Virus record (IMG/VR): IMGVR_UViG_3300030102_001682
Span: 1-31,947 of that record
Source: a virus
DNA: 31,947 nt
Reading direction: 5' to 3' (one strand)
The first letter of the stretch is position 1. Each line of letters opens with the position of its first letter. The notes beneath the pieces are model-generated. The model had not been told where the DNA came from. It worked only from the letters and a program-made list of their open reading frames with translations, and did no database searches. Below are positions 6,027 through 31,832 of this stretch, in pieces. The position numbers and the translations under genes are program-made.

Positions 6027-6479
6027 TTACAAGACAAGGCCAGTAGGTGCCCCATTTACTTCAAAACTAATATCTGCTGCTGTTACTTCTCCTACTGCAT
6101 TTGTGATATTAAGATTTGTTGGTATTGCTTGAAATTCAATAAATCTACCAGCAGTAGATCCATCCTTTATTCTTAACTTAAATGTCATAGCAGTGCTTTC
6201 TGCATTAACACCATCACCTGCACTACTACCAGTTTTAATAATATTATTTATTAAAGTACTAAGCTGACCAGCACCACCTCCAGCTACATCTTGATAATAA
6301 TAAACACTGGCACTACCTGTATAGCTTCTAGTTCCATGAATAATAGTTCTATCAGTATCTTCTAATGAAACAGTTTCTAAAACTGCTTGGTTAAATGAAA
6401 ATGAAAATGATCTGACTTTAGCAACTTTCGTTCCATTTATCAGTAATTCGCCTTCTTTACCAGAATAAAAGCCAGCCAT
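6027..6479 (-). CDS. Small tail-tube-like structural protein
   Basis: This 150-residue protein reads G-E-L-L-I-N-G-T-K-V-A-K-V-R-S-F-S-F-S-F then E-T-V-S-L-E-D-T-D-R and G-S-A-S-V-Y-Y-Y-Q-D. That matches the usual tail-tube beta-sandwich pattern: a strand, a threonine/aspartate loop, and a Gly-Ser-x-Ser strand ending in an aromatic-Gln-Asp. The length is typical for a compact tube-fold protein. It lies downstream of the gpJ-like gene rather than next to the tape measure gene, so it is unlikely to be the main tube subunit; that role fits 14219-14974 better. It abuts the 286-residue gene (TAA then ATG) and may be structurally related to it. No strong ribosome site is visible. Function beyond 'tail structural protein' is inference. 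Confidence 0.58.
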   Translation of the reverse strand: MAGFYSGKEGELLINGTKVAKVRSFSFSFNQAVLETVSLEDTDRTIIHGTRSYTGSASVYYYQDVAGGGAGQLSTLINNIIKTGSSAGDGVNAESTAMTFKLRIKDGSTAGRFIEFQAIPTNLNITNAVGEVTAADISFEVNGAPTGLVL

Positions 6480-9900: not shown

Positions 9901-10896
9901 TATAGTTGCATATCTAGGAAAATTTGTTCTAAGTTTTCTTCTTTTTGTATCAACATCTGTTTTGTTTTGATCCTTTAAATTTTTTTGTTTTAAAACTAAT
10001 TCATAAGGAACTCTATATCTCATACTATTTGGCATTGGAGAGTAAACACCAAAAATTGTTTGTGTATTAGGAGTTCTTGCACTACTTACAATAGTATTTG
10101 TTGCACCCATAGTTTGATCCCAATCGACAGACATAACATCTGAAAAGGAATTACCATTTCGATCTATCTGTCTTTCTAAAGTACCTTCACTATATTTTTC
10201 AGGTCCTTCCTGTGGTCTACCACCGTTAGTCATTACATAAATTGCTAATTTTTTATGTAAATAATTTTTAAGTAAAAGATCCCCAATCGCATAACCTGCA
10301 AATTCTGGTTTAGCGGCTAAATCAGACAATCCAAGCATAAATAATGCTTTCAACTGTTGACCCGAACCAAGGCTTATCATTTGTGACCATAAAAGTCTTG
10401 TATTTACACGAACTCCTCCAAAAACTCTAATTTCTCCCTGATAATTAATAGTTTCTTGTTTTGTAAATATCAGAGGAATTATATCGCCAAAGTTAGCAAG
10501 TTCCTGTACTGAATTAAATCCTGTTTGTGGTGCAAACCTTTTAGCACCTGTTTGACCAGCAGTTGTGAGGCTAGGAGGAGTTTTAGGTGGTCTGGGTTTT
10601 GGTGTTAATAAAACAGAAACAACTGTAAGTATAACTCCAAAAAATATTTGACCAAAAGTAGTTAAAGCTCCAGTAGTTGTAAATAACGCTGGAAAATTTA
10701 CAACATAAGGTATCTCATCATATTCTTTAGGTCTTTTTCCGTTAAATGCCTGTGTTAATTCTACAAAATACCAATACTCATCTTCTGTTATACCTACTGT
10801 TTCACATAATTCGACTTCTGCGGGGAATAACACCCTACGACCTCCAAGTGGTCTAAAGGACTCCATCTTACCTCCGACTCTCCGCAGTTTATCCAT
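6940..10896 (-). CDS. gpJ-like tail tip / central host-specificity protein
   Basis: This is the largest complete protein here (1318 residues), placed right after the gpL-like and NlpC-like genes, as gpJ is in lambda-type tails. The N-terminus includes a hydrophobic stretch at ~70-96 (T-F-G-Q-I-F-F-G-V-I-L-T-V-V-S-V-L-L) followed by a proline-rich TPKPRPPKTPP linker. This resembles the small gpI-type tail assembly protein and may be a gpI-gpJ fusion. Residues ~110-400 carry the hub-like region (F-G-D-I-I-P-L-I-F, LFMLGLSD), and residues ~990-1180 the long tip region (M-V-T-A-A-K-F-C-E-A-N-Q-F-Y-W-D-G-V). Two starts are possible: 10896 (GAGG four bases before ATG) or Met11 at 10866 (GGAGG four bases before ATG). 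Overlap with the upstream gene is 103 or 73 bp accordingly. It probably forms the tail tip and contacts the host surface. Confidence 0.82.
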   Translation of the reverse strand: MDKLRRVGGKMESFRPLGGRRVLFPAEVELCETVGITEDEYWYFVELTQAFNGKRPKEYDEIPYVVNFPALFTTTGALTTFGQIFFGVILTVVSVLLTPKPRPPKTPPSLTTAGQTGAKRFAPQTGFNSVQELANFGDIIPLIFTKQETINYQGEIRVFGGVRVNTRLLWSQMISLGSGQQLKALFMLGLSDLAAKPEFAGYAIGDLLLKNYLHKKLAIYVMTNGGRPQEGPEKYSEGTLERQIDRNGNSFSDVMSVDWDQTMGATNTIVSSARTPNTQTIFGVYSPMPNSMRYRVPYELVLKQKNLKDQNKTDVDTKRRKLRTNFPRYATIDNYDGVNGNRNDLQVEKGKEIVYVIGDMDSEDQFGEGFDPWGVEDVKSAVDASREESDDAIQVGESYLIGSALAVCIRKSKPIWSKKVYQDCFFRVDIPGLIDVRHRNDGFFGAHKGYELLTIQKVAIGTISNSKACDVTEIGLKSKVFKQVTSFPNVNSHPGAVGWNEQDMDTTDGVVKRYNDDDGSISLGGMSKYLTRYSFFRLQARVAGKNNATDDWHYIDGGHPFAVKGNSPQPQYNFIRINHYSNPRREFEFRFLPFPGNLIYKRYVDHNNEVRLLSASGQLTNYTVGTADQFFSIYFKGSNAKIRSGDASNTEWYLGELPTATDGGKINRLLLESTGVIPRSTRWVEVDRKTSNMDANLRNEAVIFYHPPNHGSSWVWSTRDRPPHWREYIGNRNRTINDPLRNPSTITIGDPYVHPYIDRDDGFRYGVGPHITTLGARDANNNKVARRNRGEYYGIIKYEMKEADVVPTIHENVATTTTGSGTGLQVRLKVYLNPDNNQYAAAVWEITARGSGYKDSDLISIPQTGNFPGFNNINIVTDFSEFVSQPWPEGKNLNPFDAVTDYYQYDAERSSHQDGPEHEIVYVNEQSSATTSPPYELPQAGIANVALRISSSKEWNSFSQFSAYIKQGIRVERLIDNTIGATNLFPEIVFALLTDTRFGLADSIGVSSVDRERMVTAAKFCEANQFYWDGVITDKVNVREFIYQNAIFNLLDFTILGGKFSLFPSVPFDPHSFQIRKEQKPLVRALFTDGNTRNLKVSFLAPEERQNFLGTVYFRKEVPNGFSETLSKTFCVATDDDKIAEKFPSEIFDMSDFCTNPDHAEEFLKHALMIRAKVDHGINFETTPQAALGLKPGDYIRFISEATHTSRFENGVISPDGVVQSVGNNSLTNVSIYHWKPGTQEVKESNLNVVDGFTTDANLYGSVFTVKQTTESNRLYKIESMTYTDEGLIQVSASHAPLLSDGTLATINYDELDFMNLS

Positions 10897-11183: not shown

Positions 11184-11692
11184 CTATTTTGAATATCGCT
11201 TGTTACAGGTAGTTTACCAACAGCGTCAGTAGTCAAAACTAAATTTGGTACGTTAATGCCTACTGCATCTATAGCACTACTTAACAGAACTTCTACAACT
11301 TCTGGATCGTAAGATAGAGAAGCAGCAAGCCATGTATCGGTTGTCAGAATATTTGTAACGTTATCAATATTATCGTTAGATACAACACAAACATTAACTT
11401 CAACAAAATATCTATTAAGGACAGCTTCTTGTGCTTTTGACATACTTAATGGATGATTTCCCATAATTAAATTAGATTCGATATTATCTCCTGATCTGTT
11501 AATAGTTGTCCCTTGATAAATAAACGGTAAATAATGATAATTTTGACCATTAAATAAAATTGTATTATTTGCAGAATTTGAATTTTCAGATGGTTCTCTT
11601 TTAGCATTTTGCAATCTATGCTTTGTACTTCTGTTGTTATTAATATCTACACTAAAAACTTCTACAAAAGTGACTAAAGTTGTAAGGCTCAT
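11180..11692 (-). CDS. gpL-like minor tail protein
   Basis: This 170-residue protein sits between the tape measure gene and the NlpC/P60-like gene, exactly where lambda places gpL. Both junctions are ATGA overlaps. The sequence is beta-rich, with E-V-F-S-V-D-I near the N-terminus and a central run of the form N-Y-H-Y-L-P-F-I-Y-Q-G. It then has N-I-E-S-N-L-I-M-G-N-H (compare the 'value-of-interest then N-x-x-x' strands of tail-tip L proteins) and C-V-V-S-N-D-N-I-D-N-V. I do not see the Cys cluster that binds an iron-sulphur centre in lambda gpL; only one Cys is present, so any cofactor role is doubtful. The assignment rests mainly on gene order. Confidence 0.6.
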   Translation of the reverse strand: MSLTTLVTFVEVFSVDINNNRSTKHRLQNAKREPSENSNSANNTILFNGQNYHYLPFIYQGTTINRSGDNIESNLIMGNHPLSMSKAQEAVLNRYFVEVNVCVVSNDNIDNVTNILTTDTWLAASLSYDPEVVEVLLSSAIDAVGINVPNLVLTTDAVGKLPVTSDIQNR

Positions 11693-13629
11693 AATCCAAG
11701 AGATGCACGTTGACTTCTAGAATTTCTTAACGTGCCCATAACTTGTGCTTTACCTGCCATTGCACCACGTTTTGCAGCAGCACCGATAATCTCAGGCACA
11801 GCAGATTTTGGAACGTACTCATCGCCATTAAAGTTTAATGTTGGACCTGTGTATTCAACAACTGTGTTACCAGAAGAACCTGCAACAGTACCAGAATCAC
11901 CAGAACCACCTGGAATAACAGAACCACCTCTAGCACCTGCTGAAAACCGATTCATAGCACCTGCCATCTTTGAGGCTGGTATAACGTATTCTGGTTCGCC
12001 ACCTTCTCCAATCATTTTTAAACTTGCAGAATTAACATAGCCACCTTCGGCAAGTCCAAAGTTTGGTCCAGCAATACCTAATCCAGTTGTAGAACTATAA
12101 TATCCACCTGCACTCATACCACCACCACCAAACATACCACCAAAAATACTACTGAAAGCTTTATTTAAAAACATACTTGCAAGCTGTTTTGCAATGTCTG
12201 CTAACGCCTGACCTAATGTTTTTGTACCTTCTATCAATCCCATCACAGCATTTGTCATACCACTAGCTAAGATATTTGTTATCTCTTGCTGTGTTTGACT
12301 TTGCTTTTCAAGTGTTTGATTTAATTGTGTATTTGCTGTGTTTAATTGATTAGTGGTATTTAAAGATTTATTTAATTCGTTATTCTTATCTTTTGAAACT
12401 GTTAAATTTTCTTTTTCTTTAACAGTGTTTTGATTTAATAAATTTTGTCTAGCTGCAAGTAATTCATTAATTTTAGTTTGGGAAGCGATAGTAAAATCAG
12501 TAAATGCTTGATTTTCTCCCGAAGTAATACCAAAAGGTCTTGATTTGTTTATGTTTGCTGCGACATCTGCTGCTTGATCTTGAGTACCCCTAATTTGATT
12601 CATTATTTCAGTTAAACTACCTGCATCTAAACCTGCTGGTGAGATACCTTGTATAAACTCTGTCAAACTTTCAAAATCACCCTTTGTTCCACCTGGCGTA
12701 ATTAATGCTGCTCTTCTTGAACTTAATTCTCTTTGAAACTCACTTGATAAAAGTTTATTAATTGCTGACAAAGCTTTATTAGCTGTGTCTAATATCCCTT
12801 TTAATACTGGTTCTAAAAAATCCTCTATAGTTCTTGCTAATGTTTCAACATTATCTACTAATGTACTAAATTTACCTGCAAGAGTTGTACTTTGAGCTAT
12901 AGCACCATCTGCATAAGTACCACCAACAGACGTTAAATTTTCTAAAGCAATCGCAACTTTATCAGCTCCAATCTCACCTTTTCGCATTGCTGTTTCAAAA
13001 GCATCTCCTTGTAAACCTGTTATTCTTTTAAGTTCACTCGTAATATCAATCCCTCTTTCTAATAACTGCAATTCCTCTTCTCTCATTAATTTACCTTTGG
13101 CTCTTATTTGTCCAAACACTAAAGCAATTTCGTTTAGATTAGCCCCTGTTGCACCAGCAACATCTGATAATCTTTTTACTGTTCCGACTATTTCATCAGT
13201 TTCAAAACCAAACGCTTTTAATCTTTTTGCGGTTTCAATAAGATCAGTGCTTCTAAATGGAGTAACTGCACCAAAATCTTGCAACTGTTTTATGATTTTA
13301 TTTGTTTTGCTTATTGAACCTGTTAAAACTTCTAAACTTTTTCTTTGTGTTTCTAACTCTGCTCCTTTAAAAACTACAAATCTAAATGCTTGAATTGCTC
13401 CAAAACCTAAAACTAAATTTCTTACTGCTCTATTTAAAGCATTTACACCATTACTTGCTAACTTAGATGCTTTGCCTGTTTTTCTAATATTATTTGCAGC
13501 AGCATTTGATCTGTTTTGTAATTTGCTAAAACTTTCTTGTAAACGATTACTTGAATTTTTAAGTTTGTTTAAATTTCTATTAGCATCTTTTGCTGATACT
13601 TTAATTTTTATACCAACTTCGCCAGCCAC
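11689..13629 (-). CDS. Tape measure protein
   Basis: This 646-residue protein determines tail length and leaves the tail at DNA entry. The N-terminal ~70 residues are Lys/Asn-rich helix. Residues ~70-260 hold the conserved tape-measure domain (E-L-E-T-Q-R-K-S-L-E-V-L-T-G, V-T-P-F-R, A-K-R-L-K-A-F-G, L-F-G-Q-I-R-A-K-G-K-L-x-x-E-E-L). Residues ~390-450 are a Gln/Asn/Thr-rich helical stretch, and a Gly-rich hydrophobic patch (F-S-S-I-F-G-G-M-F-G-G-G-G-M) lies near 500. At about 0.15 nm per residue the tail would be near 95 nm; this is a rule of thumb. The start is GTG at 13629, since the in-frame codons just upstream lead straight to a stop and no earlier ATG is available. No ribosome site is visible upstream, so coupling to the frameshift product 26 bp upstream may drive its translation. 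Confidence 0.9.
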   Translation of the reverse strand: MAGEVGIKIKVSAKDANRNLNKLKNSSNRLQESFSKLQNRSNAAANNIRKTGKASKLASNGVNALNRAVRNLVLGFGAIQAFRFVVFKGAELETQRKSLEVLTGSISKTNKIIKQLQDFGAVTPFRSTDLIETAKRLKAFGFETDEIVGTVKRLSDVAGATGANLNEIALVFGQIRAKGKLMREEELQLLERGIDITSELKRITGLQGDAFETAMRKGEIGADKVAIALENLTSVGGTYADGAIAQSTTLAGKFSTLVDNVETLARTIEDFLEPVLKGILDTANKALSAINKLLSSEFQRELSSRRAALITPGGTKGDFESLTEFIQGISPAGLDAGSLTEIMNQIRGTQDQAADVAANINKSRPFGITSGENQAFTDFTIASQTKINELLAARQNLLNQNTVKEKENLTVSKDKNNELNKSLNTTNQLNTANTQLNQTLEKQSQTQQEITNILASGMTNAVMGLIEGTKTLGQALADIAKQLASMFLNKAFSSIFGGMFGGGGMSAGGYYSSTTGLGIAGPNFGLAEGGYVNSASLKMIGEGGEPEYVIPASKMAGAMNRFSAGARGGSVIPGGSGDSGTVAGSSGNTVVEYTGPTLNFNGDEYVPKSAVPEIIGAAAKRGAMAGKAQVMGTLRNSRSQRASLGL

Positions 13630-13654: not shown

Positions 13655-13840
13655 TTACCTGCGTTTGGCACTTTTTAAAGTTTTTTCATGATCGTCATTT
13701 AATATTTCAAAATAAGCAGCCCAAATTATCAACTCAGATTCTGTGATATGTCGTTTTAAATCATACAATGTATAACCTAGTTCTTTAGCCACACCTAACT
13801 GGAGCATCAAAAAATTATCTCTTTTGACCTCCTTTTTTAT
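13655..13840 (-). CDS. gpT-like frameshift extension of the tail assembly chaperone
   Basis: Reading minus one at the A7 run before the chaperone stop opens a frame of 61 codons that ends at TAA 13657-13655. It begins I-K-K-E-V-K-R-D-N-F and continues L-G-V-A-K-E-L-G-Y-T-L-Y-D-L-K-R, then E-L-I-I-W-A-A-Y-F-E-I-L. This is the Gly-Tyr/Trp-T-L-x-x-L...W-x-A-Y-F/Y signature of gpT-type extensions. The combined product would be 179 residues. The extension ends 26 bp before the tape measure start, as in lambda G/GT. An alternative is independent translation from ATG 13807 (50 residues); the AGGAGG at 13828-13833 is about 20 bp upstream, which is too far for a normal site. The frameshift is the better explanation but is not proved. 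Confidence 0.8.
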   Translation of the reverse strand: MKKEVKRDNFLMLQLGVAKELGYTLYDLKRHITESELIIWAAYFEILNDDHEKTLKSAKRR

Positions 13841-13846
13841 TTTTTT
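13837..13846 (-). promoter_or_regulatory. Programmed -1 ribosomal frameshift site (A AAA AAA then TAA)
   Basis: On the minus strand the zero frame reads GTA AAA AAA TAA. The seven consecutive A bases (13846 to 13840) are a perfect X-XXY-YYZ slippery heptamer, placed so that slippage by one base avoids the stop. After the slip the next codon is ATA at 13840-13838. A run of A6 then GG follows 2 bases later, with AGGAGG at 13833-13828 just 3' of the site. No strong stem-loop is obvious downstream by eye. The result expected is a minor 179-residue fusion protein. Confidence 0.8.
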
Positions 13847-14193
13847 ACATCAACTTCCTCACTATCTTTAAACTCTTCACTAATAACAGCAAGCATCAAT
13901 GCCTGAAGGTCTGCATCTTTACATTCATTTTTTAATTCAGCAGCATGACCAGCAGTAAACATTCTTACTCCATTTTCGTCTGTTGCCTTTTGAATTAATA
14001 ACTGAAGAGCCATAGCATTAAGGTCATCTTTAGTTCCTTTCTGTGCTCTTTCTCTTTCAGCCATTGTTAATGGTGTTGACCAAAATTCAAAGATGTCACC
14101 ATTTGTAAGTTCTACTTCTCTTTTGATAGGTTGTAGATTAGCAGCCTTTTTTAATTTCTCCAGTGGAGAAAGGCGAGGTTTTGGGGTTGCCAT
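13837..14193 (-). CDS. Tail assembly chaperone (gpG-like)
   Basis: This 118-residue protein lies between the tail-tube gene and the tape measure gene. Chaperones here bind the tape measure and the tube protein to start tail assembly. The sequence begins MATPKPRLSPLEKLKKAANLQ, then shows the strand-turn pattern E-V-E-L-T-N-G-D-I-F-E-F-W-S-T-P-L-T, typical of this family, followed by acidic helices (E-F-K-D-S-E-E-V-D-V-K-K at the end). The zero-frame stop TAA immediately follows an A AAA AAA run, so a fraction of ribosomes should read through into the extension at 13655-13840. No ribosome site is clear upstream of the start. The call is supported by location, size and the frameshift. Confidence 0.82.
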   Translation of the reverse strand: MATPKPRLSPLEKLKKAANLQPIKREVELTNGDIFEFWSTPLTMAERERAQKGTKDDLNAMALQLLIQKATDENGVRMFTAGHAAELKNECKDADLQALMLAVISEEFKDSEEVDVKK

Positions 14194-14218: not shown

Positions 14219-14974
14219 TCAACTACTTGTACTGAAGTCAAAGGTTGGTGCTTCAGTTGGTTTAAATGTAATCTCTACAGACTGTGCATCGTCTGGATTT
14301 ACATTAAATTCTGCATCTGAAAGCATTGCATCTAATTGAATACTTCTACTTAAAGCTTCAGTTCCTTTTTTATCTGTATAAAGTTTAAATGCAGCACCAA
14401 CTTGGTTTCTCTGTATAACATCTTCGACCATTCTATTAGCTAATGCAGAATCTTCATCTGTAACAAATACAGTTGCTGTTCCTTCACCATCAGCAAAACC
14501 AGGGACAAATGTTCTAAATGGAACTGCCTGTGTGCTTTGCTGACCAATAGTTGTTGTATCTATTTGTTCTCTTGATATAGAAAAACTCCACTGCTGCACT
14601 TCACCTACGGCTGCAAAATCTGCATAGGCAACTTGAAATTCATTTGGTGATGCTGCTGTTCCAACATCAGTAATATTAACTGCCGATCCACCTAAAGTTG
14701 CTGATACCTGCAAAGCGCCTGTAGCTGCTGTATAACCAATAACAAAGAAAGTGTCACTGGCATTTAAACCTGCTGGCAAAGTACCTGTACCACTGCCACC
14801 TGTTTGTGCATTGATTACAGAAAACTTAACACCATCACCTACTTTAAAGTTTAGGTAAGTTTCTACAGTAATGGTTTCAGTTGCTATTGCAACATTTGCC
14901 GTTCCAAAAGTGCCTTTAGTACCTGCTGGTTTGTAATACAACGCACCGCTAGTACCAGATAATACAGTTGCCAT
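14219..14974 (-). CDS. Major tail tube protein
   Basis: This 251-residue protein polymerises around the tape measure. It is placed between the tail terminator-like gene (15000-15416) and the chaperone, as gpV is in lambda. The central segment reads E-V-Q-Q-W-S-F-S-I-S-R-E-Q-I-D-T-T-T-I-G, then a Gly-rich F-A-D-G-E-G-T-A-T-V-F-V-T-D-E-D. This is the conserved tube fold: strand, Thr/Ser-rich loop, and Gly-x-Gly strand to an acidic loop. The first ~100 residues are Gly/Thr-rich (G-G-S-G-T-G-T-L-P-A-G-L) and may be an extra surface domain. The C-terminus ends V-E-I-T-F-K-P-T. It is the best candidate for the main tube; two other genes show the same signature. Confidence 0.85.
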   Translation of the reverse strand: MATVLSGTSGALYYKPAGTKGTFGTANVAIATETITVETYLNFKVGDGVKFSVINAQTGGSGTGTLPAGLNASDTFFVIGYTAATGALQVSATLGGSAVNITDVGTAASPNEFQVAYADFAAVGEVQQWSFSISREQIDTTTIGQQSTQAVPFRTFVPGFADGEGTATVFVTDEDSALANRMVEDVIQRNQVGAAFKLYTDKKGTEALSRSIQLDAMLSDAEFNVNPDDAQSVEITFKPTEAPTFDFSTSS

Positions 14975-24657: not shown

Positions 24658-26715
24658 CTACCTTTCAGATGAGGTAGGTACAGATTTAATCCAAGTCCAT
24701 TTAAGTTGACCATCTACTCTTTTTCGTTTTTTCTCATACCCAAGAGATTTTAGAATAGATGAGACAGTCATGACATCTGATTTTGTTTGTTTATCGGTAG
24801 ATTTCTCTACAGCTTCAGTTAATAAAAGTTCACAGGTTATGGTTTTAGAATAGTTTGAAGGATCTGTAAGCCATGAATGAATAGGGTGTGTCCAGGGCGA
24901 TTCGACAAGATAGGCAAGATTTTCTAAGGCAATTAAGTTTTCCTGTGTATGTGTAAGATAATGAGGTTCTTTATTTCTGTATGATTTGATTGCAGAACTC
25001 CAGATAGAATCTCTCTCCATTTCAAGCCCATTTGTATTAATCATATTGGAGGCAGTTGATTCAACAGGGATAACATGAAACCTTCTATTACCTGTATCAT
25101 CAAGTAAAAAATTATCTTTATTGGTAGAACCAACGATAATACATTTTCTAGGGAACTCTTCTACGGATCTGCCATATGGAACACGCATATGATCTGTAGC
25201 TCTTGATAAAAAAGACTTAACTGTACCTGCGTGTTTTTTAGAAGTGATCTGATCTATCTCTGACCATTCGCAGAGCCAACTGCGGTGAAGGCAAAGTATA
25301 TCATCTTTATTGGAAAGATCACCGAGAGAATCTGAGAAAAAAGCACCTCCGAGTATTTTCCAAAATGTAGATTTACCACAACCCTGATGCCCCATCAGAA
25401 CAGTGGCTGTATCATGTTTAGCACCAGGTTCAAATATCCTTCTCACTGCACCGATCAAAGTGGCTTTCATCATGTGGTCATAAATTGTCGGTTCTTTGTA
25501 TTGAGCATCTGAAGGTCTTAGGTATGTCGTTGCAAGTCTGTCTATGTAAGCAGGTTCAACAGTTTTTTCTACGACTTCAAGATAATCACGAACAGGGTCA
25601 AATTCGTTTTCATGGGAAACTTTAAGAAGGCAATCTATCGCCATTTCTTTTGAGCATTTATAATTTTGCTCTGATAGCGACAGGTAAAACAGTTCAGTAT
25701 TTTTAAGAGGCTTTTCATTCTGCTCTATGTTGTGAGTAAAAGTGTTATATCTAATTTTGTTTGGCATATTACGCAGCAGATGTATAAGTTCCTGTGCATT
25801 TATTGGTTCTAATTTTTTTGGTATTACTTTTGTTGTATCTTCTGACTTGTAATGTATGGAAGGGTTTATCTGCTTTGGTGGAGGAGTCCAACCATCTTCC
25901 TGTGCATACTTAACAAGAGTACCTAAAGATACTCCTGACCTTTTACCAAATGATTGCCATTTTTTAAAACATTCACCAGATTTATAGTTTGATGCTTTTG
26001 CTGAAATGGTATCCCATTCTGTTAAAAGGCGATCATCTCCGACACTGTGCAGGCTCATACCAATTTGAACCCAAGTATCGTAATCATCTAAACGTGATGG
26101 ATTTATTGATTGAAGTAAAGAAAGACACCTTTCATAATCTGAATTAAAAACCTCTGGTTGTTTTACCTCAGTTTCCATCATGCGTTCTAATAAAATTGCT
26201 GGTGCTTCTGCTATGGGTATGTCATCAGGTGATCTATCTTTTACCCATTTGTAACCAGAAGTTTTTGGGTGTTCACCTGCTACAACAGATTGACAACCAT
26301 TCCATCTAAGTTCAAGTTGCTCTACAGAACCCTCTTCATCTTTTACACCTGTTCTAAATTTTTTAGTTTTTATCTTTGACCAAAGTTCTTCTGGTACTTG
26401 ATATATAAGTTGAAACCGCCCGACCCTACCAGAAGTGACTGTCCATGTAAGAGGTAGTGTTGATATTGATAGCCCCCATTCGAGAAGAATGTTTGAGGCA
26501 GATTCACCATCATGGTCTACGAATAAAAGGCCACCTGACAACTCACCTGCAAGAACACCAACAGCTTTTGCTTTCTTTGATATTAATTCTTTTAGTATTT
26601 CTGATCTTTTTAGGGGATTCTTTTGCCAATCTTTTTGATAAGGCTGTTTGTTACCATTGACTGCAACATAACGCCAGCTTGAAGGCAAGCGTAATAATTC
26701 TTCTTTTGTATCCAT
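24658..26715 (-). CDS. PrimPol-VapE primase / helicase
   Basis: This 685-residue protein is a replication initiator. The N-terminal part (residues ~1-180) is a bifunctional primase-polymerase domain: L-L-F-V-D-H-D-G-E with the D-x-D metal motif, then T-S-G-R-V-G-R-F-Q-L-I-Y, and L-E-L-R-W-N-G-C-Q-S-V-V-A-G-E-H-P. In the second motif the usual S-G-x-G-x-H is S-G-R-V-G-R-F-Q, so Gln replaces His. Residues ~195-275 fit PriCT: Y-D-T-W-V-Q-I-G-M-S-L-H and F-K-K-W-Q-S-F. Residues ~400-590 are a VapE-type ATPase: M-G-H-Q-G-C-G-K-S-T (Walker A), W-L-C-E-W-S-E-I-D, G-S-T-N-K-D-N-F-L, G-N-R-R-F. It lies 2 bp after the ribbon-helix-helix gene, so both are likely on one transcript. Confidence 0.85.
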   Translation of the reverse strand: MDTKEELLRLPSSWRYVAVNGNKQPYQKDWQKNPLKRSEILKELISKKAKAVGVLAGELSGGLLFVDHDGESASNILLEWGLSISTLPLTWTVTSGRVGRFQLIYQVPEELWSKIKTKKFRTGVKDEEGSVEQLELRWNGCQSVVAGEHPKTSGYKWVKDRSPDDIPIAEAPAILLERMMETEVKQPEVFNSDYERCLSLLQSINPSRLDDYDTWVQIGMSLHSVGDDRLLTEWDTISAKASNYKSGECFKKWQSFGKRSGVSLGTLVKYAQEDGWTPPPKQINPSIHYKSEDTTKVIPKKLEPINAQELIHLLRNMPNKIRYNTFTHNIEQNEKPLKNTELFYLSLSEQNYKCSKEMAIDCLLKVSHENEFDPVRDYLEVVEKTVEPAYIDRLATTYLRPSDAQYKEPTIYDHMMKATLIGAVRRIFEPGAKHDTATVLMGHQGCGKSTFWKILGGAFFSDSLGDLSNKDDILCLHRSWLCEWSEIDQITSKKHAGTVKSFLSRATDHMRVPYGRSVEEFPRKCIIVGSTNKDNFLLDDTGNRRFHVIPVESTASNMINTNGLEMERDSIWSSAIKSYRNKEPHYLTHTQENLIALENLAYLVESPWTHPIHSWLTDPSNYSKTITCELLLTEAVEKSTDKQTKSDVMTVSSILKSLGYEKKRKRVDGQLKWTWIKSVPTSSER

Positions 26716-30041: not shown

Positions 30042-30379
30042 AACTTAATTTAGATTTACCAAAACATAAATGGCAGTGTATTTCTCGACATTTGAAAGAT
30101 TATAGGAAAGAAGATGAAACAGTAAACACTTTTTGTTGTGCTGTTGAATCTATCGAATTTGGTTCCGACTTTCCATCAAAGATGTATCAATTTTTGTCGT
30201 CACATTCTGAACTTAGTCCTTTAATTTTTCCAACTGTGCAGACCATACAAAAGCATGATGGAGGCCCAGGTATTGTTAAAAATATGTATCAAATTTATGA
30301 ACACATCAGTCACGCAAGAACCGATTACTACAAATTTATTCAAGACAACTTCAAAATAGTTCAACAGGATAAATCATGA
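30038..30379 (+). CDS. 113-residue protein of unknown function
   Basis: I choose ATG 30038 because it makes an ATGA overlap with the previous stop and AAGGAG lies 12 bases upstream; an earlier in-frame ATG at 29984 would add 18 residues but lacks a ribosome site. The product is M-K-L-N-L-D-L-P-K-H-K-W-Q-C-I-S-R-H-L-K-D-Y, then F-C-C-A-V-E-S-I-E-F-G-S, G-G-P-G-I-V-K-N-M-Y-Q-I-Y-E-H-I. It is helical, with no catalytic motif that I recognise. It overlaps the exonuclease gene by four bases (ATGA). Confidence 0.6.
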   Translation: MKLNLDLPKHKWQCISRHLKDYRKEDETVNTFCCAVESIEFGSDFPSKMYQFLSSHSELSPLIFPTVQTIQKHDGGPGIVKNMYQIYEHISHARTDYYKFIQDNFKIVQQDKS

Positions 30380-31179
30380 CGACAGGATCAGTACAAATAT
30401 CAAACGAAGATTACCATGCAAGTGATGCGATCTCAGCATCAATGCAAAAAACAATGGTAAAGCATGGCCCAAAAGCATACTGGAATTGTTATCTAAATCC
30501 AGACAGGCCAGAACAAAAACCAACGGCTGCTATGTTGCTGGGAACATTAACTCACTGTGCAGTATTAGAACCTGATGAACTGACAAAAAGGTTTGTTGCA
30601 GTATCATCAAGAACTACAAAAAAAGGTAAGGAAGAGGCAAAAGAAGCTGAAGAAAAAGGTATCATTCCTGTTACTGAAGCAGACATGACCACTGCACTAA
30701 AAATGAGAGATGCAGTTTTTGCAGAACCTCATGCCAAGAAGTTATTAAATTTTGGTGTTGCTGAAAAGTCTTACTGGTGGGAAGATACTGTATCTGGTTT
30801 GACTTGTAGATGTAGACCTGATTGGTTAAACAAAGATACTATTATTGATCTTAAAACCAGTAGATCAGGAGCAAACCCGATAGATTTTGGTAAGGCAGTT
30901 GCTAATCTAAAGTACCATCTCCAAGCAAAACATTATTTGAATGGTATTCCACAGGCCAAGCATTTTATTTTTTTGGTAGTACAATCTGAATACCCTTATG
31001 ACGTAGGTTTATGGAAACTTGATGATGATGCTTTGAAAGAAGGTCAGGTGTTATCAAGATCAGCACTAAATCAAATTGCACAATGTCGCTTGCTTGACGA
31101 TTGGCCTAGCTGGTGTCAGGCAGGTGTTAAATCACTATCCTTGCCCCGATGGGCGTATTCAACCCCAATAGAACAATGA
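30376..31179 (+). CDS. RecE-like PD-(D/E)XK exonuclease
   Basis: This 267-residue protein is a phage recombination exonuclease. It has A-M-L-L-G-T-L-T-H-C-A-V-L-E-P (the helix with a conserved His), then C-R-C-R-P-D-W-L, D-T-I-I-D-L-K-T-S-R (D-x-K catalytic), and Y-H-L-Q-A-K-H-Y-L (the Q-x-x-x-Y motif). These are the RecE/lambda-exonuclease-like motifs of the DUF3799 type. It likely degrades the 5' strand to give 3' overhangs. Directly downstream is a Rad52-family annealing protein (ATGA overlap). The identity is well supported. Confidence 0.85.
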   Translation: MTTGSVQISNEDYHASDAISASMQKTMVKHGPKAYWNCYLNPDRPEQKPTAAMLLGTLTHCAVLEPDELTKRFVAVSSRTTKKGKEEAKEAEEKGIIPVTEADMTTALKMRDAVFAEPHAKKLLNFGVAEKSYWWEDTVSGLTCRCRPDWLNKDTIIDLKTSRSGANPIDFGKAVANLKYHLQAKHYLNGIPQAKHFIFLVVQSEYPYDVGLWKLDDDALKEGQVLSRSALNQIAQCRLLDDWPSWCQAGVKSLSLPRWAYSTPIEQ

Positions 31180-31832
31180 GTTTTAATGAAGAGCAGAAAA
31201 AACTGCTAAATCAAAAAATTAACAAAGACAATGTTTCTTTCCGTAGCGGTGGAGGCGGTCAACAGTTGGCTTATGTAGAAAGCTGGCACGTTATACAAGA
31301 AGCCAACCGCATCTTTGGTTTTGATGGTTGGTCTTGTGAAACTTTAGAGGCTGGTCTTGTCAGCGAAGGTAAAGACAGTTATGGAAACTCTATTTTTTCT
31401 TACATTGCAAAAGTTCGAGTCACAGTAGGAAACATAATCAGGGAAGGTTATGGCTCTGGTCATGGAAGAGGTGGCAAGATGTCTGATGGTGAAAAACACG
31501 AATCAGCAATTAAAGAAGCAGAAAGTGATGCTTTGAAAAGAGCCATGAAAAGCTTTGGAGATCAGTTTGGTTTATCTTTATATGACAAAGATAAGGCATG
31601 GCTAAAAGAAGAGAAAGAAACCAAAACTAAAGATGTCAGTGACAAACCCATAGATCTTACTGAAGGAGAAAAGTTTATCAAAGAATGTGAGGCATTTATA
31701 AAACGCCCAGGTAGTAAAGACAAACTTGGTTTGTTGAAGAAAAACATTTCTAAAAGGTTTGAATCAAAAGCTATTACTGAAAACCAAAGAGATGGATTGC
31801 TAACACTTATTTTAGAGAAGGAGGATTCATGA
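31176..31832 (+). CDS. Rad52/22-family single-strand annealing protein
   Basis: I choose ATG 31176 (218 residues) because it overlaps the exonuclease stop in ATGA; the earlier ATG at 31149 adds nine residues. The signature is V-S-F-R-S-G-G-G-G-Q-Q-L-A-Y-V-E-S-W-H, then A-N-R-I-F-G-F-D-G-W-S-C-E and E-S-D-A-L-K-R-A-M-K-S-F-G. This is the conserved Rad52/Rad22 DNA-binding domain. The C-terminal ~70 residues are a Lys/Glu-rich linker and helix (E-G-E-K-F-I-K-E-C). It would pair with the exonuclease for annealing of single strands. The partner layout is typical. Confidence 0.9.
   Translation: MSFNEEQKKLLNQKINKDNVSFRSGGGGQQLAYVESWHVIQEANRIFGFDGWSCETLEAGLVSEGKDSYGNSIFSYIAKVRVTVGNIIREGYGSGHGRGGKMSDGEKHESAIKEAESDALKRAMKSFGDQFGLSLYDKDKAWLKEEKETKTKDVSDKPIDLTEGEKFIKECEAFIKRPGSKDKLGLLKKNISKRFESKAITENQRDGLLTLILEKEDS

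Follow-up and report, generated by a model that had tools for sequence, protein, structure and literature searches.

The window, the whole AT-rich 31,947-nucleotide stretch of DNA analysed here, is part of a 38.8-kb IMG/VR virus record (IMGVR_UViG_3300030102_001682) from a marine siphophage. Its gene order is terminase, portal-like protein (DUF4055), Mu F-like protein, major head protein, connectors, tail terminator, major tail protein, chaperone/extension pair and tape measure protein. The pair thus sits between the genes for the major tail protein (14219..14974; phrog_158 major tail protein, E=2.3e-7) and the tape measure protein (11689..13629, start codon GTG 13629; PF20155 TMP_3, E=1.1e-18, and several tape-measure PHROGs); all features described here are on the minus strand. 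The tail assembly chaperone gene (13837..14193), gpG-like and of HK97 gp13 type, has a zero-frame product of 118 residues. As the earlier note had read from the letters, its last codons are GTA AAA AAA TAA, with the stop at 13839-13837 and a run of seven A's (A7) at 13846-13840 that forms an A_AAA_AAA heptamer (13840..13846). A -1 frame extension (13655..13840) is open for 61 codons (13840-13658) up to a stop at 13657-13655 and, again as noted earlier, ends shortly before the tape measure gene, with a gap of 25 nt. The junction of the predicted fusion protein reads ...VDVKK-IKKEV..., and the extension residues encoded before an in-frame ATG at 13807 (M12 of the extension) include DNFLMLQLGVAK. 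A TTG at 13810 is a possible alternative start, and AAGGAGGT (13834-13827), which contains GGAGG, is a possible ribosome-binding site. A predicted 13-bp stem-loop (13801..13832), a candidate stimulator, begins 7 nt 3' of A7, and GAGGAA (13855..13860), a weak Shine-Dalgarno-like sequence about 9 nt 5' of A7, is a possible 5' stimulator.

Profile and fold comparisons, together with gene position, point to a tail assembly chaperone as the zero-frame product. The profile phrog_344 ('tail assembly chaperone') is matched by 39 of 42 chaperone homologues and by HK97 gp13. An AlphaFold model that is only fair (pLDDT 71.5, pTM 0.56) has as its best PDB match the HK97 tail assembly chaperone 2ob9 (Foldseek rank 1, E 2e-3; VIA Z 8.2). 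YqbN, 3fgx and a PICI protein come next, and after them Z drops to 2.4. Direct hhalign comparison with HK97 gp13 gave no match, the likeness running through the fold and the PHROG profile, and direct profile comparison with lambda gpG gave none either. For the extension, all 13 sequences tested match both phrog_337, which also contains lambda gpT and is matched by the HK97 extension, and phrog_14766, which contains both parts of the HK97 frameshift product. When a profile built from 40 extensions is compared with the HK97 extension by hhalign, the alignment has E=4.7e-8 (37% identity over 30 residues); its match to lambda gpT is weak (P=0.026). The second part therefore appears to be homologous to the T extension; the gpT-type label given to it previously was right, and HK97-type is the more precise term. 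Pfam and NCBIfam yielded nothing usable for chaperone or extension (weak Phage_TAC_13 matches in 6 of 42 homologues), Pfam PF06223 (Phage_tail_T) had no match over its curated cut-off in the window's own record, and a PDB sequence search found no relative.

We asked how much the window says by itself. Over the 7,328 codons of its minus-strand genes there are 69 in-frame X_XXY_YYZ heptamers, A_AAA_AAA occurring several times among them, and the chance of an open -1 frame of 61 codons is about 2%. The slippery site that the earlier note described is present, but the weight placed on it was too great: the A7 heptamer alone is weak evidence and is not special in an AT-rich window. The combination of heptamer, gene-end position and conservation is far beyond chance. 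Since A7 heptamers are common in the window, the case depends on comparison with relatives.

Relatives were gathered by an IMG/VR protein search (74 loci) and three profile searches (at least 80 loci each), which left at least 256 distinct loci after removal of duplicates; S-2L was set aside as too distant to class. The isolates KBS-S-2A, S-H1, MED4-184/P-HS2 and MED4-117 carry the pair, as do, at greater distance, S-2L and the single-cell contig AG-345-A17. A scan of a genome collection found one locus, on a gammaproteobacterial MAG contig. Across the 256 distinct loci listed, the frame of the extension picks up directly where the chaperone stops but is shifted relative to it, and a shift-prone site lies there; the direction is -1 in 239 and +1 in 17. 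A mechanical reading of all the loci listed found no clear in-frame chaperone-extension fusion, and most of the ten loci in which no chaperone ORF could be read are truncated by a contig end. Divided by site, the 256 distinct loci listed comprise 106 with C_CCA_AAA, 17 with two overlapping heptamers (C_CCA_AAA_AAA), 18 with C_CCA_AAG or AAC, 22 with A_AAA_AAA, 29 with A_AAA_AAC, 14 with C_CCN_AAG, 33 with A_AAG and 17 of the +1 class (GAC ATG AAA AGC and similar). A shift-prone site before the first stop, with an overlap in the shifted frame, is thus conserved. Retention of A7 in homologues had been proposed as a check on the fusion: every contig of the window's own clade has it. Close relatives have C_CCA_AAA, by itself or overlapped with A7, and homologues further away lack A7 but have another recognised shift site in the same place. 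Frames split by extra stops, the other outcome that would have told against the fusion, do not occur.

Several of these classes depart from a perfect -1 heptamer. The C_CCN_AAG class (L048, L050-L068, L074) and locus L165 have the site C_CCN_AAG_AAC, where N is C, T or G. Because N varies, the A-site tRNA cannot fully re-pair; in members with CCT a TAA of the -1 frame falls within the site, and both tRNAs must therefore take part in the slip. In the group of Prochlorococcus phage MED4-184 (L248-L284), all 33 distinct loci listed keep A_AAG (NNA AAG GAA or similar). Both C_CCA_AAG (highly) and A_AAG are shift-prone in E. coli (PMC5009743). The extension is in the +1 frame in L106, L123, L139, L153, L143, L071 and others, with GAC ATG AAA AGC almost invariant, and also in AG-345-A17 (L079), one of one or two separate rows outside the main +1 lineage. 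The sole clean re-pairing predicted from these sites is of tRNA-Lys from AAA to AAA by +1, which keeps all pairs. A -2 shift was considered for this lineage and rejected, since TGA would occupy the P or A site and the tRNAs could not re-pair. The direction of shifting, as read from the sites, has switched within one gene family. One 55.8-kb contig (IMGVR_UViG_3300030376_002052) has two extension loci about 33 kb apart (L302 and L315) and is possibly two phages joined in assembly.

The extension bears the marks of a translated protein. The window's clade and the double-site clade, taken together, have a pN/pS of 0.21 over codons 3-11 and of 0.19 over codons 12-57; for the same codons the other two frames give 0.8-0.95 and 2.4-2.5. 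The value for the extension is 0.02-0.10 in the C_CCN_AAG and +1 classes. By this measure the extension evolves as a protein, equally before and after ATG 13807. The shift site itself also appears to be under selection, at the nucleotide level, in relatives. Aspartate before a C_CCA_AAA/AAG site is encoded by GAC in 72 cases and GAT in 0, against a GAC:GAT ratio of 197:469 elsewhere in those genes, and proline within the site is CCA in 74:0 cases, against 108:193 elsewhere in those genes, although these rows are related by descent and exact tests on them overstate significance. GAC and CCA are what the C_CCA_AAA heptamer needs. The A7-only clade of the window, whose heptamer lies three bases further along, would have no need for that C, and here the aspartate is GAT in five cases and GAC in three.

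The stem-loop 3' of A7 is an addition to the earlier note, which missed it. The 45 nt after the stop fold with a minimum free energy of -13.0 kcal/mol and a 13-bp stem; codon-preserving shuffles average -4.7, with 0 of 2000 as low. The corresponding z-score is -4.1; among 235 other coding segments of the genome, not one has a z so low. The site thus has the parts of a programmed -1 signal, an A_AAA_AAA heptamer, a 7-nt spacer and a stable 3' structure; the usual spacer at -1 sites is 5-9 nt (PMC5009743). The hairpin is conserved in the window's clade, and in KBS-S-2A and L118 a stem lies at the same place, with the same 7-nt spacer, after A_AAA_AAC, with a few compensatory changes. In an alignment of only six sequences, three stem pairs change on both sides (four cells); 11 of 500 shuffles score as high for covariation.

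Downstream structure differs among the site classes. The C_CCN_AAG class, with its imperfect heptamer, is followed at a similar distance by far more extensive folding, with about -41 kcal/mol across 90 nt and a z of about -5.5, and the C_CCA_AAA loci as a class have no strong hairpin. Over 48 nt, z is about -2.0 to -2.8 for A_AAA_AAN and A_AAG (mean -2.2 for the A_AAG loci of the MED4-184 group) and -0.6 and +0.3 for CCCAAAN. This class pattern makes sense given how shift-prone C_CCA_AAG is (PMC5009743). A correlation of hairpin strength with loss of C_CCA_AAA was not adopted, being seen by class where the tree gives just 3-6 independent pairs. Likewise, a Shine-Dalgarno-like upstream stimulator was not retained: pairing with the anti-Shine-Dalgarno sequence upstream is somewhat stronger than a synonymous null in the A7 and CCCAAAA classes (mean percentile 0.18-0.30; 0.26 for the window itself), a modest enrichment only.

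We considered whether the split frames could arise in some other way than by ribosomal frameshifting. The main alternative in the earlier note was that the extension is a separate small gene, translated from ATG 13807 (or TTG 13810) with the GGAGG of AAGGAGGT as its ribosome-binding site; termination-reinitiation after TAA 13839 would have the same result. The in-frame ATG and the perfect GGAGG are indeed there, and an ATG is found in the extension of all C_CCN_AAG loci and nearly all +1 loci listed. However, the GGAGG is about 20 nt from ATG 13807, and the predicted hairpin has one of them in each of its two arms, which casts further doubt on initiation at this codon. ATG 13807 is not conserved among relatives: 95 of the 256 distinct loci listed, including all 33 with A_AAG, lack any start codon (ATG, GTG or TTG) in the stretch from the shift site to the conserved residue E20. 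Moreover, codons 3-11 are under the same purifying selection as the rest of the extension, and a separate gene leaves the fixation of GAC and CCA at the shift site unexplained. Selection ahead of the ATG and the loci without a start codon together mean that an independent start at 13807 is not the general route, and we regard a separate gene as improbable.

Slippage could instead occur during transcription, with RNA polymerase slipping on A7 to give mRNAs with an extra or missing A. A7 lies next to a run of six A's, a homopolymer setting in which such slippage is known (PMC5009743), but homologues shift at CCCAAAAGG, CCCAAGAAC and GCAAAGGAA, with just two to four A's, and the 7-nt distance to the hairpin is typical of ribosomal signals, in keeping with slippage of the ribosome. 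Hence, we consider transcriptional slippage still less probable than a separate gene. That the frames are split by a sequencing error, to which homopolymers are prone, or by decay of a once-fused gene into a pseudogene, has a negligible probability: the same frames are found in many independent assemblies and in the isolates KBS-S-2A, S-H1, MED4-184 and MED4-117, purifying selection is strong, and no clear in-frame fused relative is among the loci listed.

The fusion by -1 frameshifting that the earlier note proposed is upheld by the frame arrangement, the selection and the HK97 homology seen in relatives. We infer with high confidence that the chaperone gene, which is of the lambda G/GT and HK97 gp13/gp13-14 kind, makes use of programmed -1 ribosomal frameshifting. 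The majority of ribosomes would stop at TAA 13839 and release the chaperone of 118 residues. A minority of them, carrying tRNA-Lys in both the P and the A site on A_AAA_AAA, would slip back by one base, on the assumption that tRNA-Lys behaves in this way in the host of the window phage, and the hairpin 7 nt downstream probably aids the slip. These ribosomes would read 61 more codons and produce a chaperone-extension fusion, presumably as a minor product. By analogy with lambda, the chaperone part would coat its presumed partner, the tape measure protein, and the extension would recruit the major tail protein, also a presumed partner. On the same grounds, the fusion should be needed for tail assembly, and a low ratio of fusion to chaperone, set by the slip rate, would matter for it.

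HK97 gp13/gp13-14 shares with the window the order major tail protein, chaperone, shifted extension and tape measure protein, as well as the chaperone fold (2ob9), phrog_344, an alignable extension and the -1 direction; the HK97 record itself states 'translated due to a -1 frameshift'. It differs in that its shift region ends CCCCCGGCGTAA where the window has A7, its extension is about 95 residues long rather than 61, and a further small gene separates its extension from the tape measure gene. Lambda gpG/gpGT is alike in operon position, in a -1 frameshift near the end of G and in an extension that belongs to phrog_337, but its T domain is longer (144-residue ORF). The lambda G-GT shift site is GGGAAAG, unlike the A7 of the window. 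In lambda, gpG has the tape measure as its binding partner and the T part the major tail protein, the ratio being about 30:1, and both gpG and gpGT are absent from the mature virion (PMC5009743); virion proteomics is therefore a poor test of the fusion. Closer to the window is cyanophage KBS-S-2A (Synechococcus WH7803), whose chaperone and extension are 68.6% and 52.5% identical to those of the window and which has an A_AAA_AAC site with a hairpin 7 nt downstream; its second codon is AAC rather than AAA, its hairpins are stronger and its record leaves the extension unannotated. The haloviruses HCTV-1, -2 and -5, whose hosts are archaeal, resemble the window in kind of site and of gene pair, their g-t -1 sites including A_AAA_AAC (PMC5009743).

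A tree of 118 fused proteins, whose inner branches are short and partly unresolved, places the A7-only clade (8 rows) on one side of a branch with support 99, grouped with the clade that carries overlapped C_CCA_AAA and A_AAA_AAA. A relay through the double site appears to be the simplest reading of the order of events. Ancestors with C_CCA_AAA would have given rise to C_CCA_AAA_AAA, from which the window's clade dropped CCC and kept A_AAA_AAA, weaker in E. coli, together with a hairpin; elsewhere the outcome would be C_CCN_AAG with a large structure, A_AAG, or +1 shifting at AAA_AGC. The extension protein would be unchanged throughout, with site strength and RNA structure traded off such that the ratio of chaperone to fusion is kept. 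We put forward this account tentatively, its probability falling slightly short of an even chance.

Frameshifted tail chaperones are a classic phage system (HK97, lambda G-GT), and the window adds a well-supported member. The newer and more interesting part is that hundreds of relatives give unusually clear signs of turnover of the shift site, including a change of direction. A literature search, mostly without subscription papers, found no report of this frameshift in these phages, and the extension is apparently unannotated in them. The expectation that annotation would easily miss it was borne out, as it is absent from the annotations of KBS-S-2A, MED4-184 and MED4-117. Our analysis thus amends the gene annotation of many related marine siphophages, a large group. 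It also provides a natural series of related frameshift cassettes that differ in shift site, direction and downstream structure, which allows a test of whether the slip rate is maintained by selection as its components are replaced.

Four other regions of the window deserve mention. Well downstream of the tape measure gene, a 150-residue protein (6027-6479) is weakly similar to the phage tail tube families PF18906 and PF09393, and may be a second protein of the tube kind. On the minus strand, the ORFs 11183-10794 and 10896-6940 share about 100 nt (10794-10896) in different frames; the start of the latter, 1318-residue ORF may have been placed too far upstream, or the overlap may be genuine. 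A single 685-residue protein (24658-26715) combines Prim-Pol, PriCT_2 and a VapE-like helicase. A PDDEXK-like DUF3799 protein (30376-31832) adjoins a Rad52-like annealing protein, with which it likely forms a recombination pair.
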